Part shown: one piece after another, positions 20,857-26,473 of the stretch | Layout of the letters: each line of letters begins with the position of its first letter | How positions within the stretch are numbered: the stretch's first letter is position 1 | Assembly: GCF_014280035.1 (NCBI RefSeq) | Contig: NZ_CP047957.1 | Location: forward strand, 1,426,001-1,490,000 | Reading direction: 5' to 3' | DNA length: 64,000 nucleotides | From: Synechococcus sp. A18-25c | GTDB lineage: Bacteria > Cyanobacteriota > Cyanobacteriia > PCC-6307 > Cyanobiaceae | The notes under the pieces: generated by a model | Told to the model about the DNA's origin: nothing | Database searches by the model: none | The model's input: only the letters and a program-made list of their open reading frames with translations | Position numbers and translations under genes: made by a program

Positions 20857-21013
20857 AACCGAGTCATTGCAGTGCTTTTAAAACCCTGTGACCAAGATCA
20901 CAGAAGCCTTCGAGCCAGGTCATCGAGTCGATCGGTGTTTCCGGTGATGGTGTGTGCATCGGAGGACTTCTTCCGAACAAAAAGCACACTTGACATCACA
21001 AAAGGACAAAACA

Positions 21014-22114
21014 ATGAAATCCTTCTCAACCAAAGAGTCCATTGAAATCAAGGACGGCATCACCACCGCATATGAAACCAGCGACAGCTCTAAAGCTGTT
21101 GACTTGTTTGTGGATTCCAGCGAAGCCTCAACTGCTCAACAAATTAATCAGTCCGCTCTTGATGGCGTTGATCTAAAGGTCGATCCCAAGGAAATCGCAA
21201 ACATTGATGTAAATCAGGAATCAATTATCCAAGAAGCAGCTGTAGGTGAGTTGCTTAACCCTGACAGTATCTCTGAACTGTACGCAACCCCAGACAATCA
21301 TGCAAGCCACATTCGAGAGCGTGCAGCCGGAGCCAATGGTGCAAATGGAGATCCTGATTGGGAAAACATGACAGACGAGGAGAAAGAGGAATTTGCTAGG
21401 AAGTTTGTCGAGGATCTATATAGTGGAGTAGATTCGGGCCTGCTGGATCCGGATGAGCCACCAGTTAGCCAGAAAGTTCTTGATGCCTTCGACGGTAAAC
21501 GAGGGCAAGAATCAGACGAGTCAGAAGGTCAGAACGATCCAGCTGATCAGGGTGGAAGCAACGAACCGGAACCTGGTACAGATGATGGTACTGGTAATAA
21601 TGACAACAATACGGAAAGCGAAGATGGCGAGGGAGGCTTCTGGGATTGGCTGAAGAGCTTATTTGGTGGTGATGATGATAATGGAGGGGACGGGGCAGAA
21701 GGTAATGGCTCCGGAGCCGAAGAAAGCTCAGAAAACCCAATGAATGAGCACCAAGGTGAGGGGGATTCTGAAGGCGACACTTCGCTTGAAGAGGTTGATG
21801 CAGACATCAACTTTGGCGAAGAGGGACAAAATGGTGGATCACTTGAAAGAGATCTAGGTGGCTTTGAAGCCGGCGACCCAATTACCAACTGGGGCCCTGA
21901 CGGCAAATCTGGTGGTGCTGGTAACGAGCTAAGTATTGGCATTGGCCTTGATGATCCTCATACAAACTGGGGTGGCGAGAATAATGGCGAGGTATATGTT
22001 GAATCCGACTTGATTGAGGCCCTAGGCGACATCAATCCGGAAATCAATGGATCTAACGACATCAACTCGCAATTCGTACAGTCCATGACAACAGTCGGAG
22101 ATGATTTCTTTTGA
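21014..22114 (+). CDS. Very acidic low-complexity protein
   Basis: A 366-residue protein starting MKSFSTKESIEIKDG. The centre and C-terminal half (about residues 150-300) are rich in Asp, Glu, Gly, Asn and Ser, broken by a Trp-containing segment GGFWDWLKSLFGG. Near the C-terminus two short related motifs occur, DPITNWG and DPHTNWGG, 31 residues apart. No signal peptide. The start at 21014 is preferred over 20954 because GGACA precedes it and the extra residues look unstructured. A strong terminator follows. Possible Ca2+-binding or surface role is only a guess from composition. Confidence 0.6.
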   Translation: MKSFSTKESIEIKDGITTAYETSDSSKAVDLFVDSSEASTAQQINQSALDGVDLKVDPKEIANIDVNQESIIQEAAVGELLNPDSISELYATPDNHASHIRERAAGANGANGDPDWENMTDEEKEEFARKFVEDLYSGVDSGLLDPDEPPVSQKVLDAFDGKRGQESDESEGQNDPADQGGSNEPEPGTDDGTGNNDNNTESEDGEGGFWDWLKSLFGGDDDNGGDGAEGNGSGAEESSENPMNEHQGEGDSEGDTSLEEVDADINFGEEGQNGGSLERDLGGFEAGDPITNWGPDGKSGGAGNELSIGIGLDDPHTNWGGENNGEVYVESDLIEALGDINPEINGSNDINSQFVQSMTTVGDDFF

Positions 22115-22506: not shown

Positions 22507-23634
22507 TTAAGTATAAAATGTCTCAGATGTGGCATTGACATATGTTTTTAGCTTGGGGCGGGAGTCAAGCGGGAACTCAATTTTATAATGACTTAAAGTA
22601 GCGGCAATAGAATATATCCTTTCGTCTTTACAGCCAGGAATAGAATGGCCACCGGGAATGCGTCTATGACCTTTTGGTAATTCTTGATGCAAATTTATTG
22701 CATTATGGACGCTTGACTGTTCTAATTTGAATTTATCTTGCAAGAGATATAGCAGCTTGTGACTTCTTGCCTCTTTTACCCCTGATGCAGGGAAAATTTC
22801 GACGCAAAAGCGCGGTGAATCAAGGCATTTAATAAGGTCCAAGTCTAAACACAATCGAAAGCTAATATCAGGTATACAATTAAATTCATTAATTATTTGC
22901 CTGAAGTTTTCTACAAAGTTTTGCGAGAAATATTGAAGTAAACACTGACAATAATTCTCCGATTTCTCCTGCCATACGGTTGTATCTATAGATTTATAGA
23001 CAAGCTTGATCAGCTCCCCTCTGCCAACCATCAATCCAAGCTGGACAGGGAGGCCAAGGATCTTAGTTAGCTGTGCTAAGTGCATGTCGACCAACTCATC
23101 ACGAAACTCGGATCCCGTGAACCCAGGCGAACGATCCAAGATTTGAAAAAAGTAGAAATCATCAAATTTATTATCATCGCCTATTCGTTCAATGCGCTGA
23201 AATATACCCCCCAGCTCAACTGAATTGCCTTGCAAATCGAACTCAAGAAAATGATCGTATGGCAAGCGGTAAGGCAGTGGTTCATGACATCTATCGTCGT
23301 GCTCAGTGATTTTTATAATATTTCTAGACTCGCAAGAATTAACAAATGAATTCCTATTCGTGTGATCGCAATTTTCAAGATAAGCGGACCACCAAGTCGG
23401 CAATTCTATGGCTGACATTGATGATAAAGTTGACATGATATGAAATGATAGATCAACTCTTGGCGGCAGGAGGTGATGAAATTCGAGCATACAGCTATAT
23501 TTATTTATTTTTTCGTCGGGAAAAATCTTTGAGGACAAGCATTCGCAAGGTTCGATGATCTGTCGAGGAAGATCTGCGTAAATCTCTTTAAAAACCCACT
23601 TAACCATGGAGTAAAATATAGAATGTCTTGCCAA
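22507..23634 (-). CDS. Unrecognised AT-rich 375-residue protein next to the Nif11 cluster
   Basis: A 375-residue soluble-looking protein with no signal or membrane segment, many Cys (about 12) and His, and AT-rich codon use unlike the GC-richer core genes, which suggests recent acquisition. Recognisable stretches are RLPYDHFLEFDLQGNSVELG, GLPVQLGLMVGRGELIKLVY and FRLCLDLDLIKCLDSPRF; they do not match any family I know. It sits directly upstream of, and divergent from, the first Nif11-like precursor gene. It could be a tailoring enzyme for these peptides, but the only argument is position. Confidence 0.55.
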   Translation of the reverse strand: MARHSIFYSMVKWVFKEIYADLPRQIIEPCECLSSKIFPDEKINKYSCMLEFHHLLPPRVDLSFHIMSTLSSMSAIELPTWWSAYLENCDHTNRNSFVNSCESRNIIKITEHDDRCHEPLPYRLPYDHFLEFDLQGNSVELGGIFQRIERIGDDNKFDDFYFFQILDRSPGFTGSEFRDELVDMHLAQLTKILGLPVQLGLMVGRGELIKLVYKSIDTTVWQEKSENYCQCLLQYFSQNFVENFRQIINEFNCIPDISFRLCLDLDLIKCLDSPRFCVEIFPASGVKEARSHKLLYLLQDKFKLEQSSVHNAINLHQELPKGHRRIPGGHSIPGCKDERIYSIAATLSHYKIEFPLDSRPKLKTYVNATSETFYT

Positions 23635-23806: not shown

Positions 23807-24073
23807 ATGTCAGAAGAGCAACTCAAAGCCTTTCTAGAAAAGGTCCAAGGAGACACCAGCCTTCGGGAAAAGCTCAATGCAGTAACCACTCCTGAAGCCG
23901 CCATTGAAATTGCTAAAGACGCAGGTTTTGCAATTACCGCAGAAGATATTCAATCAGTGCAATCGGTAGAATTGTCAGACGAGGAGCTGGAAGGTGCAGC
24001 TGGGGGGCAGAGAGGAAATCGAACTGGCATACAAACGTGCAATGTCCGTCCCTATGAAGACTGCATATACTAA
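23807..24073 (+). CDS. Nif11/ProcA-like RiPP precursor peptide 1
   Basis: An 88-residue precursor. The Nif11-type leader starts MSEEQLKAFLEKVQGDTSL, includes AIEIAKDAGFAITAEDI, and ends SDEELEGAAGG, the double-Gly cleavage site. The core after GG is 21 residues with two Cys and Thr residues (TGIQTC ... EDCIY), so lanthionine rings as in prochlorosins are possible. Length and leader match TIGR03798-type leaders. Start at 23807 is set by MSEEQ, shared by all family members. No modifying enzyme lies alongside. Confidence 0.85.
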   Translation: MSEEQLKAFLEKVQGDTSLREKLNAVTTPEAAIEIAKDAGFAITAEDIQSVQSVELSDEELEGAAGGQRGNRTGIQTCNVRPYEDCIY

Positions 24074-24263: not shown

Positions 24264-24491
24264 ATGTCAGAACAGCAGCTCAAGGCTTTCTGGGAAGCTA
24301 CTCAGGCGGATCCAGCGCTTAAGCAAAAATTGCAAGGGGTCTCAGACCTTGGTGGGGTTGTGGACATTGCCAAGGAAGCGGGATTTACGATTTCTGTTGA
24401 GGAGCTAGAGAAAGCTCAAGCTGAGCTTTCGGAAGATGAACAGCTGAGTGGTGCGGCTGGCGGCATTTGTGTTATTTTCACTCACCGTTAG
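24264..24491 (+). CDS. Nif11/ProcA-like RiPP precursor peptide 2
   Basis: A 75-residue precursor with leader MSEQQLKAFWEATQADPAL and IAKEAGFTISVEELEKAQAEL, ending SEDEQLSGAAGG. The core is only 8 residues, ICVIFTHR, with one Cys and one Thr. Its leader is closer to that of the gene at 26246 (both have FWEA and QKLQGV) than to genes 1 and 3, so at least two leader sub-types exist. The promoter box upstream is degraded (GCTGCTATTC) but at the same spacing. Confidence 0.82.
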   Translation: MSEQQLKAFWEATQADPALKQKLQGVSDLGGVVDIAKEAGFTISVEELEKAQAELSEDEQLSGAAGGICVIFTHR

Positions 24492-24578: not shown

Positions 24579-24650
24579 TGTTTTTATTGCTTCAATCGTC
24601 TGACTAACCCGATCAATCAGCCTTCATACCTGGCACCATCGCCCGCATTT
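24579..24650 (+). repeat. Intergenic module of the Nif11 tandem family, copy 3
   Basis: TTTTTATTGCTTCAATCGTC, CTGACTAAC, ATACCTGGCACCATCGCC, then the hairpin TCGCC/GGCGA with GCTTTTTT at 24637-24663. It shows that gene and flanking control DNA were duplicated together. Confidence 0.7.
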
Positions 24651-24691
24651 GGCGAGCTTTTTTATTAGATACAGACACTGCTGCCGACTAT

Positions 24692-24700
24692 TGCTATGAC
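24692..24700 (+). promoter_or_regulatory. Extended -10 element TGCTATGAC before Nif11 gene 3
   Basis: TGCTATGAC followed by CAGGCTGTAGCTCC, 24 bases before the ATG at 24725, the same layout as before gene 1. Confidence 0.65.
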
Positions 24701-24724
24701 CAGGCTGTAGCTCCGTGCCTTCCC

Positions 24725-25000
24725 ATGTCAGAAGAGCAGCTCAACGCCTTTCTAGAGAAGGTCCAAGGTGACACCAGCCTTCAGGAAAAGCTGAAAGCGG
24801 CTGCTGACGCCAATGCTGTTGCTGCGATTGCGATAGATGCTGGGTTTAGTATTTCTGCTGATGACTTGAAGAAGGCTCAATCAGAGATTTCTGATGAGGA
24901 GTTGGAAAATGCGGCGGGAGGGAAGCCTTTGGGGACTCAGACCTGCGGAGCCCTGGTAGGTCGTAGGTGCTGGAATAATAATAGACCTGTAAGTGTGTAA
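24725..25000 (+). CDS. Nif11/ProcA-like RiPP precursor peptide 3
   Basis: A 91-residue precursor. Leader MSEEQLNAFLEKVQGDTSL with AAIAIDAGFSISADDLKKAQ, ending SDEELENAAGG; this is the most prochlorosin-like leader in the set. The 25-residue core holds two Cys (TQTCGALVGRRCW) and Thr/Ser residues, and ends NRPVSV. The first 19 leader residues differ from gene 1 by one residue, so the two are recent duplicates, while their cores differ almost completely, apart from a shared G-x-QTC word. Confidence 0.87.
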   Translation: MSEEQLNAFLEKVQGDTSLQEKLKAAADANAVAAIAIDAGFSISADDLKKAQSEISDEELENAAGGKPLGTQTCGALVGRRCWNNNRPVSV

Positions 25001-25056: not shown

Positions 25057-25146
25057 ACTTTTATTGCTTCGATCACCATCAAAAGTCAACAAACCAACCT
25101 CCAATAGCTGGCACCATTAGCCCCACATAGCAGGCTTTTTTATTGA
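25057..25146 (+). repeat. Intergenic module of the Nif11 tandem family, copy 4
   Basis: ACTTTTATTGCTTCGATCA, AACCTCCAATAGCTGGCACC, then a GCC/GGC hairpin followed by TTTTTTATTGAAATC. A diverged copy of the module at 24579. Confidence 0.6.
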
Positions 25147-25169
25147 AATCAGATACGTTTTCCAACCGT

Positions 25170-25178
25170 TGCTATAAC
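25170..25178 (+). promoter_or_regulatory. Extended -10 element TGCTATAAC before Nif11 gene 4
   Basis: TGCTATAAC followed by GAGGCAGTAACTCC, 24 bases before the ATG at 25203; it matches the element at 23774. Confidence 0.62.
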
Positions 25179-25202
25179 GAGGCAGTAACTCCACTCCCTC
25201 TC

Positions 25203-25367
25203 ATGTCAAAAGAACAATCTAATCAGCAGAAATCAAAGTCAGACCTAATACAGCCAGAGCAGCTCAAGGAAGAGTTGAGTAAGGAGGACCTAGAGGGAAT
25301 ATCTGGAGGAGTTTCTGGAGAGGTCGCAGGCGACCTGGCGCGTCCACGAGGAACCTATACCCCCTGA
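25203..25367 (+). CDS. Nif11-derived precursor 4 with shortened leader
   Basis: A 54-residue peptide starting MSKEQSNQQKSKSDLI. The central helices of the Nif11 leader are missing; what remains is PEQLKEELSKEDLEGISGG followed by an 18-residue core ending ARPRGTYTP, without Cys. The conserved promoter box and start context are kept, so it is probably expressed. It marks the change from full leaders (genes 1-3) to the strongly shortened ones that follow. Confidence 0.65.
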   Translation: MSKEQSNQQKSKSDLIQPEQLKEELSKEDLEGISGGVSGEVAGDLARPRGTYTP

Positions 25368-25412
25368 GGCATAACGAGCCTTTAATAAACTTTTGGAAAG
25401 GTATTTGTCACC

Positions 25413-25556
25413 ATAGGAGAGAAGGAAAGTAAAAACGAAGATATTTCCGAAGAGGAACTGGAAAGTACCACTGGTGGTCTCCGCCATAGGGATAGAGAAA
25501 TCCCTGAAAGGACTCGGCAAAGGAATAGAGAGGTGCAAGGAAGGTTTCGGGTATGA
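25413..25556 (+). pseudogene. Shortened-leader Nif11-like copy whose start codon is ATA
   Basis: The frame GEKESKNEDISEEELESTTGG followed by a 25-residue Arg/Glu-rich core (LRHRDREIPERTRQRNRE...) matches the functional copy at 25629 residue for residue around the leader. Where that copy has CCAATGTCAGAAGAG, this one has ACCATAGGAGAG, so the start codon has become ATA. An in-frame TAA at 25386 leaves no ATG, GTG or TTG upstream, and there is no promoter box. Probably a dead or barely translated copy; ATA initiation is rare but not excluded. Confidence 0.6.
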
Positions 25557-25594
25557 ATGAGAGAGATTCCAGGTGATGAAAAAGAAGTGTTCGG

Positions 25595-25603
25595 TGCTAT
25601 GGT
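25595..25603 (+). promoter_or_regulatory. Extended -10-like element TGCTATGGT before shortened copy 5
   Basis: TGCTATGGT lies 25 bases before the ATG at 25629, the same spacing as in the other copies, though the leader words after it have diverged. Confidence 0.45.
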
Positions 25604-25628
25604 TTCACTAATCCTCACAGCACCACCA

Positions 25629-25778
25629 ATGTCAGAAGAGAAGGAAAGTATCATTAAAAACACTTCTGATGAGGAATTAGAAAGCGTCAGCGGTGGAACT
25701 GAGGAGACATTCAGAAGTCGTCGCATCAGAGAAATAAAGGATAGGGAACCAAGACAAAGAATTTTGAGGAGGAGGTAG
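25629..25778 (+). CDS. Short-leader Nif11-derived peptide with Arg-rich core (copy 5)
   Basis: A 49-residue peptide: a 23-residue leader MSEEKESIIKN + TSDEELESVSGG, then a 26-residue core rich in Arg and Glu (RSRRIREIKDREPRQRIL). The helical Nif11 domain is gone and only the start word MSEE and the S/D-E-E-L-E-x3-GG cleavage box remain. The core shares the word RRIRE with the next gene. No Cys, so no lanthionine. Start 25629 rather than 25557 because it keeps the family start and promoter spacing. The stop lies 2 bases before the next ATG. Confidence 0.6.
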   Translation: MSEEKESIIKNTSDEELESVSGGTEETFRSRRIREIKDREPRQRILRRR

Positions 25779-25780
25779 AG

Positions 25781-25963
25781 ATGATGGAAGAGATCAAGAA
25801 CACCAAGGACGACATTTTTGATGAAGAACTGGAAAACTCGACTGGCGGAAGCGGCGAGACAGATCGAGAGCGCCGTATCAGAGAACTTGCGAAGTGCAAT
25901 CGACCGATCCTTCCGAGGAGATTAAGAACTGACCGATCGATGCCGCCATTGCCGGGAGAATGA
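25781..25963 (+). CDS. Short-leader Nif11-derived peptide with Arg-rich core (copy 6)
   Basis: A 60-residue peptide: leader MMEEIKNTKDDIFDEELENSTGG, core of 37 residues starting SGETDRERRIRELAKCNRP and ending MPPLPGE. It has one Cys. The ribosome site GGAGGAGG lies inside the last codons of copy 5, only a few bases before this start, so the two are translationally coupled. The second Met (25784) may be the actual start. The RRIRE word in the core is shared with copy 5, unlike the hypervariable cores of genes 1-3. Confidence 0.55.
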   Translation: MMEEIKNTKDDIFDEELENSTGGSGETDRERRIRELAKCNRPILPRRLRTDRSMPPLPGE

Positions 25964-25993: not shown

Positions 25994-26202
25994 GACGACG
26001 AACCAGAGCAGCTCAAGGAAGAGTTGACTGAAGAGGTGTTAGACAATGTTGATTTGTATCTGGTATTAGGGATGGTGGTGGTGAGTATGGTGCGACAGAA
26101 GGGGGTCCAAAGTGCCCAAGTGTTCAGGGGCGTTGCCTTGGCATGCGAAATAAGGCGCGAGTGGCTGTTTGGTGGCTCATCCCTCACCGTTTGAGTCGTT
26201 GA
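25994..26202 (+). pseudogene. Degraded, frameshifted Nif11-like precursor
   Basis: Right after an in-frame TAA the frame reads DDEPEQLKEELTEEVLDNVD, matching PEQLKEELSKEDLEG of gene 4. The match then moves to another frame reading VSGIRDGGGEYG and GGPKCPSVQGRC, so a frameshift lies near 26045-26065. There is no start codon. The core region keeps two Cys. A dead copy of a gene-4-type precursor. Confidence 0.55.
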
Positions 26203-26245: not shown

Positions 26246-26473
26246 ATGTCAGAAGAGCAACTGAAAGCATTCTGGGAGGCCATTCAGTCAGACCCAACAC
26301 TTCAACAAAAACTTCAAGGCGTCACCGATCCCAACACCATTGTGGACATTGCCAAGGAGGCAGGCTTCACAATGTCTGCAGAAGAGATAGAGAAAGCCCA
26401 AGAAGAGATTTCGGATGAAGAGCTGAACTCATCAGCTGGAGGGCGCTCTGGGGTGGGGTGCGCCTGTACGTGA
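26246..26473 (+). CDS. Nif11/ProcA-like RiPP precursor peptide 7
   Basis: A 75-residue precursor with a complete leader: MSEEQLKAFWEAIQSDPTL, IVDIAKEAGFTMSAEEIEKA, ending SDEELNSSAGG. The core is 9 residues, RSGVGCACT, with two Cys, one Ser and one Thr. AGGCTGTAGCTCC and the start context match genes 1 and 3, but the -10 word is altered (TGACTATCA). Closest leader in the window is gene 2 at 24264. Confidence 0.85.
   Translation: MSEEQLKAFWEAIQSDPTLQQKLQGVTDPNTIVDIAKEAGFTMSAEEIEKAQEEISDEELNSSAGGRSGVGCACT

Follow-up and report, generated by a model that had tools for sequence, protein, structure and literature searches.

The layout of a short double-glycine leader followed by an unmodified core is that of the class II bacteriocins and microcins. 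Among cyanobacteria, 150 of 290 precursors lie outside NHLP, Nif11 and two further families (PMC3140520, Table 2). The C39 peptidase LahT150 cleaves a peptide in which a ProcA leader is cut down to its final 13 residues, and needs a hydrophobic residue at -4 (Thr is tolerated), Leu-7 and Leu-12 (PMC6363468). The short-leader ORFs described here, which lie among procA-like genes of Synechococcus sp. A18-25c, are, by the evidence of their sequences, probably a separate family rather than Nif11 precursors with a lost leader.

The window, the 64,000-nucleotide stretch of A18-25c DNA that was analysed, has its short-leader ORFs between the procA-like genes at 23807, 24264, 24725 and 26246 (Table 1). 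A sequence-only reading had pointed to short ORFs with a cleavage box at 25203-25963; the copies at 25203, 25629 and 25781 are intact, with the cores that it had quoted and with a leader of 22-36 residues ending in a [DE]-x-L-x4-GG box, but the copy at 25416 is without a start. The start word it had proposed, MSEE or MSKE, is present in 25203 and 25629 and absent from the other copies. ORFs that begin with ATG and carry the box at the right spacing number four in the window (one of them the procA gene at 26246), against 0.025 expected per 64 kb from dinucleotide shuffles, and chance ORFs were ruled out by this comparison. The start of precursor 4 at 25781 lies two bases past the stop of precursor 3.

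The copy at 25416-25556, which has its box at 25416-25478, is probably a pseudogene because it has no in-frame ATG, GTG or TTG and carries a premature TGA where its intact paralogue reads AGA; with the start codon missing, the idea that it is a fourth functional gene was rejected. Of the five copies in the stretch, two are decayed: this one and the remnant near 26000, whose shifted frame still encodes GGGEYGATEGGPKCPSVQGRCLGMRNK, a Cys-containing former core. The short-leader genes are small enough for annotation to miss and are covered by no Pfam family. An Rfam search over the window recovered two tRNAs and nothing else, and a PHROGs search gave no match. The AlphaFold model of the 25203 product, built with 12 homologues, has a mean pLDDT of 60 (low confidence) and two short helical turns around positions 18-30, and is uninformative. 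Beside the procA cluster, a 375-aa ORF (22507-23634, - strand) has no Pfam, NCBIfam or PHROGs match, and its AlphaFold model, made without homologues (pLDDT 34), is meaningless; a 386-aa ORF at 20954-22114 is very rich in Asp, Glu, Gly and Asn and has no confident family match.

Table 1. Features of the short-leader genes and their surroundings, in positions of the window; a slash separates leader from core.
Feature	Position	Strand	Description
procA-like precursor, Nif11 leader (neighbour)	23807..24073	+	PF07862; TIGR03798 6e-26
procA-like precursor (neighbour)	24264..24491	+	PF07862 5e-16
procA-like precursor (neighbour)	24725..25000	+	PF07862 3e-17
procA-type upstream cassette of 25203 gene	25104..25202	+	terminator-like end, TTGCTATAAC box, 5' UTR; direct repeat D2, 71% to 24626-24738
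Short-leader precursor 1	25203..25367	+	36-aa leader; MSKEQSNQQKSKSDLIQPEQLKEELSKEDLEGISGG / VSGEVAGDLARPRGTYTP; family search E=8e-14
25-bp patch in core 1	25327..25351	+	96% identical to G000:851450-851474 (-); E=4.8e-4, 0.0016
Decayed copy 2	25413..25556	+	..GEKESKNEDISEEELESTTGG / LRHRDREIPERTRQRNREVQGRFRV; ATG->ATA, TGA in core; aligned with intact paralogue L049:7291-7461
Short-leader precursor 3	25629..25778	+	23-aa leader; MSEEKESIIKNTSDEELESVSGG / TEETFRSRRIREIKDREPRQRILRRR
Short-leader precursor 4	25781/25784..25963	+	22-23 aa leader; (M)MEEIKNTKDDIFDEELENSTGG / SGETDRERRIRELAKCNRPILPRRLRTDRSMPPLPGE
30-bp patch, end of core 4	25933..25962	+	97% identical to G000:1559445-1559474 (-); E=9.5e-7, 3.2e-6
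Frameshifted remnant of another short-leader gene	25997..26165	+	EPEQLKEELTEEVLDNV..; no start codon; repeat D7, 85% to 25254-25294
procA-like precursor (neighbour)	26246..26473	+	PF07862 1e-17; TIGR03798 8e-24

The family leader is conserved over 31-36 residues, as MEDPKNIKDDKKEKESPELKEELTEEELKGVSGG or M(S/T/P)EEQxKK...VKEELTDEELxGVSGG, and is followed by unrelated cores. Its forms can be written MEDPKNIKDD.../M(S)EEQxKK...LKEELTEEELKGVSGG, and the leader body has a conserved sequence of its own (MEDPKNIKDDKKEKESPELKEEL) that is present in other species. Homologues in other genomes, on which the earlier proposal had been staked, are present. A DNA search found a stretch of the same genome (G000, 1713311-1713570) that is 84% identical, with short matches in G024, G016 and G015, and family members occur at three more A18-25c loci and in G024, G016, G015, G010 and G018. 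Among the 400 genomes of the taxonomic family that were searched, eight gave strong matches (E<1e-5); six of them belong to this genus and two to another. One of the eight, G123, carries a related form, MTDPKENEQVNEELSTDELKSVSGG, which has Cys-free cores with PEGSGxGxTxxDW in common; its genes stand in tandem (L144), some of them just above the cut-offs for CCRG-2 and the bacteriocin signal.

In L049:7291-7461, the intact paralogue of the copy without a start, the sequence reads MEDPKNIKDDISDKELESTSGG. Its 22-aa leader starts with MEDPKNIKDD, as in the 34-aa family; the 22-aa Arg-rich leaders therefore begin like the 34-aa ones, minus the middle, and that of the paralogue looks like an internally shortened version of the 34-aa family leader. 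This 22-aa Arg-rich subtype was found in the A18-25c genome alone, and G024 carries a shortened leader form of its own, MEDTKNIKVELTEDELKGVSGG. Three relatives, in G024, G016 and G015, have two double-glycine boxes per ORF (L051:2509-2787, L054:4707-4937 on the - strand and L056:763-1008), with the spacer DGVVTDVPGN[PT]LGS shared by two of the three, and could release two peptides. G018:C1:1358000-1374000 (L102) carries an array of further short double-glycine precursors, such as MTELNTQAQIIELTDDQLELVEGG, whose cores are hydrophobic or Arg-rich; these form a separate short-leader family within the genus.

The cores are Cys-poor, as the sequence-only reading had stated: Cys occurs in one of the seven short-leader cores of this genome against 26 of its 27 procA cores (p=3.5e-5) and, over all collected loci, in 5 of 18 against 87 of 91 (p=7e-10; the genes are not a random sample). 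Their description as rich in Arg and Glu holds in part, for the core of 25629 (R+E 0.54, with 0 of 1000 shuffles as high) and that of the L049:7291-7461 paralogue (0.47, p=0.002), but not for 25781, where the value of 0.35 is not significant (p=0.23), nor for 25203, which is not Arg/Glu-rich. Pure purine bias was ruled out as the source of this richness for 25629 and L049:7291, but not for 25781 and L049:7507. The word RRIRE is common to two cores, as had been reported (chance about 0.018), and its codons differ at synonymous positions only. The cores are hypervariable and mostly unalignable; the exceptions are two pairs of probable orthologues with conserved cores, G010 and G015 sharing VDLAA[IV]AIPMYSGHEDRA and G024 and G021 sharing FKFH..NPTQVP.

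The core of L049:7507-7686 (G000:C1:1713506-1713688) matches the C-terminal tail of ribosomal protein S13 (TIGR03631, E=7e-8; whole precursor E=1.6e-7). A BLAST search of its DNA against the rpsM gene of the same genome gave no match, but direct alignment gave 46 of 60 nucleotides identical. Read in the same frame, eight codons differ synonymously and three with a change of amino acid, a level of divergence that points to a capture long ago or to a donor in a different organism. A comparison of 34 A18-25c cores (27 procA, 7 short-leader) with the genome itself found, outside precursor genes, the 30-bp and 25-bp patches only; the matching site of the former is antisense in an EamA-like transporter ORF, and that of the latter, which is moderately significant only, is inside an ORF resembling a potassium channel. 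Three of the seven short-leader cores, but none of the 27 procA cores, carry an apparent captured fragment (p=0.006); this contrast was drawn post hoc in a single genome, and its three cases differ in strength. In at least some cases, short-leader cores appear to gain sequence by the capture of short gene fragments.

At the positions read by C39 peptidases, the short leaders have Leu at -7 in all 22 cases, V, L or I at -4 in 20 of 22 (the others have T and S) and a hydrophobic residue at -12 in 21 of 22; the deviations include Thr at -12 in 25629 and Ser at -4 in 25781, residues that may suit a C39 peptidase less well. The complete 2.51-Mb genome of A18-25c encodes 49 Nif11 matches above the Pfam cut-off, one LanM and four C39 peptidase matches, and LanM (G000:1863853) has a second ABC protein, a C39 ABC transporter and a protein for outer-membrane efflux as its neighbours; a C39 domain lies at G000:1869629. 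One of the four C39 matches is beside LanM and none adjoins the short-leader genes, near which no immunity gene was recognised. We infer that a C39 transporter acts on the short-leader peptides.

On the sequence-only reading, these genes would be procA copies in which an internal deletion removed the helical leader domain and spared the start and cleavage box. A [DE]EL-x4-GG box does end the leader, as in Nif11-leader precursors, and in a profile alignment of the 34-36 aa leaders with 91 procA leaders exactly the last 13 residues aligned (P=6e-7); after removal of the box, just the first 8 residues aligned (P=2e-4). The 22-aa leaders aligned with the end of the procA leaders over 21 columns (P=6e-8), and the procA gene at 26246 is a fourth copy of repeat D3 (60%). 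The cassette upstream of 25203 scored 72 in local alignment to procA upstream DNA, against a shuffled 99% level of 20, and such DNA was found at 25203, at the two other long-leader genes of this genome that were tested and at two G024 genes (scores 46-148; shuffles about 20), the procA promoter occurring with an MSEEQ start in 25203 and several relatives. Against this origin, the leader body between start and box is a conserved non-Nif11 sequence known from other species, and 25203, 25629 and 25781 match neither PF07862 nor TIGR03798. The DNA ahead of the box in three of the four 22-aa leaders is no closer to procA than codon-shuffled sequence (p=0.30, 0.08, 0.53), with p=0.013 for 25784; the 22-aa paralogue shares its MEDPKNIKDD start with the 34-aa family, and MEDPKN-type genes have an upstream region different from that of procA. 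Comparison with family models, with procA leader profiles (box included or removed) and with codon-shuffled DNA gave nothing Nif11-like outside the box, except at the 5' end of one subtype, which limits homology with procA to the last 13 residues and, in that subtype, to the promoter and first codons. A mosaic, in which the procA promoter and start were joined to the short-leader family, fits better and would be the simplest account of this subtype, and the loss of a Nif11 leader is unlikely. The promoter in this account is proposed from conservation only, since promoter and terminator scans of the region gave no score above shuffles.

Less likely again is that the short-leader genes are decaying scraps, broken precursor copies without function that are kept only by recent duplication. 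The absent start and early stop of 25416, the frameshift near 26000 and the hypervariable cores, some of which hold pieces of other genes, would all agree with such decay, yet the short leaders are under purifying selection. Their pN/pS is mostly 0.2-0.3 (from few comparisons, picked after the motif was found and not independent), in keeping with the earlier expectation of a ratio away from one, and Fisher p is about 0.001 per pair for three pairs of 34-aa leaders and 1e-4 pooled for two pairs of 22-aa leaders. The conserved core of the G010/G015 orthologues, with 4 synonymous changes and 1 nonsynonymous change in the whole gene, the intact ORFs in at least six genomes and the retention of the upstream cassette also argue against scraps. 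The least likely of the explanations considered is that the short leaders are still recognised by the resident LanM or another modifying enzyme and the cores modified. LanM co-occurs with the short-leader genes: 26 of the 400 genomes searched in the taxonomic family encode it, against 8 of the 8 that have a strong short-leader match (counts that ignore relatedness), and a few cores contain Cys, for example HEHVEPPCEEGCYKPEPF. Most short-leader cores, however, cannot form lanthionines because they have no Cys, and no other RiPP-modifying gene was recognised beside these genes.

The explanation favoured here, which we hold to be probable with some reserve, is a separate short-leader double-glycine family inside prochlorosin clusters, whose peptides a C39 ABC transporter would cleave and export without modification. 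The module at the leader end (Leu-7, hydrophobic -4 and -12 in nearly all, Gly-Gly) would be read by the C39 peptidase, and the cores would leave the cell unmodified via the C39 ABC transporter as a second core library beside the prochlorosins, with some of the genes behind an upstream cassette common with procA. Core turnover may involve the birth and death of copies and, in at least some cases, the capture of fragments of unrelated genes. The sequence-only reading was largely right in what it observed and probably wrong on origin, and the fate it proposed, a peptide cut and exported unmodified, is the best reading: the retained C39 residues, the purifying selection on the leader and the Cys-poor cores are consistent with a peptide type that could be processed without lanthionine formation. 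A more specific proposal is tentative and rather doubtful, namely that prochlorosin-making picocyanobacteria have a linear second library with a C39-only leader, partly a procA promoter, and cores from captured fragments (S13 RNA-binding tail, antisense transporter DNA); if true, it would give a direct view of the birth of hypervariable secreted peptides. It would be guesswork to say that the secreted peptides serve in interactions with other microbes.

These results bear on how prochlorosin-type systems make hypervariable cores and on the purpose of the peptides. The short-leader genes offer a natural comparison, a sister family with the same export box, the same neighbourhood and partly the same promoter, whose cores are mostly unable to become lanthipeptides; the features common to both families point away from lanthionine chemistry and towards export and ecology. 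Where donors can be traced, as for the S13 tail and the transporter antisense DNA, the origin of new cores would be open to direct test.

Among known families, the CTB family bacteriocins (NF038167) show a weak box-level likeness (14.5 bits for 25629 against a cut-off of 32), with unrelated cores. The CCRG-2 family RiPP leader (NF033456) is reached by the G123 relative (24.5 against 24 bits), a box-only match over 16 residues, and leaves the window genes unmatched at E<=10; it differs in that the short-leader cores are without Cys. The 'other' double-glycine precursors of PMC3140520, defined there by exclusion only, are likewise outside NHLP and Nif11 and occur in LanM clusters too (15 in group IV). 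Prochlorosins and synechococsins (procA/syncA; TIGR03798/PF07862) have in common with the short-leader genes the neighbourhood, the C39 box, a conserved leader with a hypervariable core, decayed copies and, in part, the promoter and first codons. The short-leader genes differ from them in having no Nif11 domain and Cys-poor cores mostly unable to form lanthionines; the Cys plus Ser/Thr that define a prochlorosin core are not a feature of the short-leader cores (Cys in 1 of 7).

The closest likeness in layout is to class II bacteriocins and microcins, in the short GG leader with hydrophobic -4, -7 and -12, the expected C39 ABC export and the core, here predicted to be unmodified. The bacteriocin-signal model TIGR01847 (cut-off 15.7 bits) gives 13.8 for 25203 and 16.6-16.9 for the G024 and G123 relatives, and the G010/G015 gene passes TIGR03949; the window genes are below both cut-offs. 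In view of this layout, of PMC3140520 and of the members that reach NCBIfam bacteriocin-signal cut-offs, the earlier statement that no described family has this layout was too strong. Class II systems differ in that the genes described here have no recognised transporter or immunity gene alongside and are instead multicopy, with hypervariable cores, in prochlorosin clusters and partly behind a procA promoter cassette. Known double-glycine peptides already show this layout; the novelty lies in the family itself, in its attachment to prochlorosin clusters and in cores that appear to be captured gene fragments.
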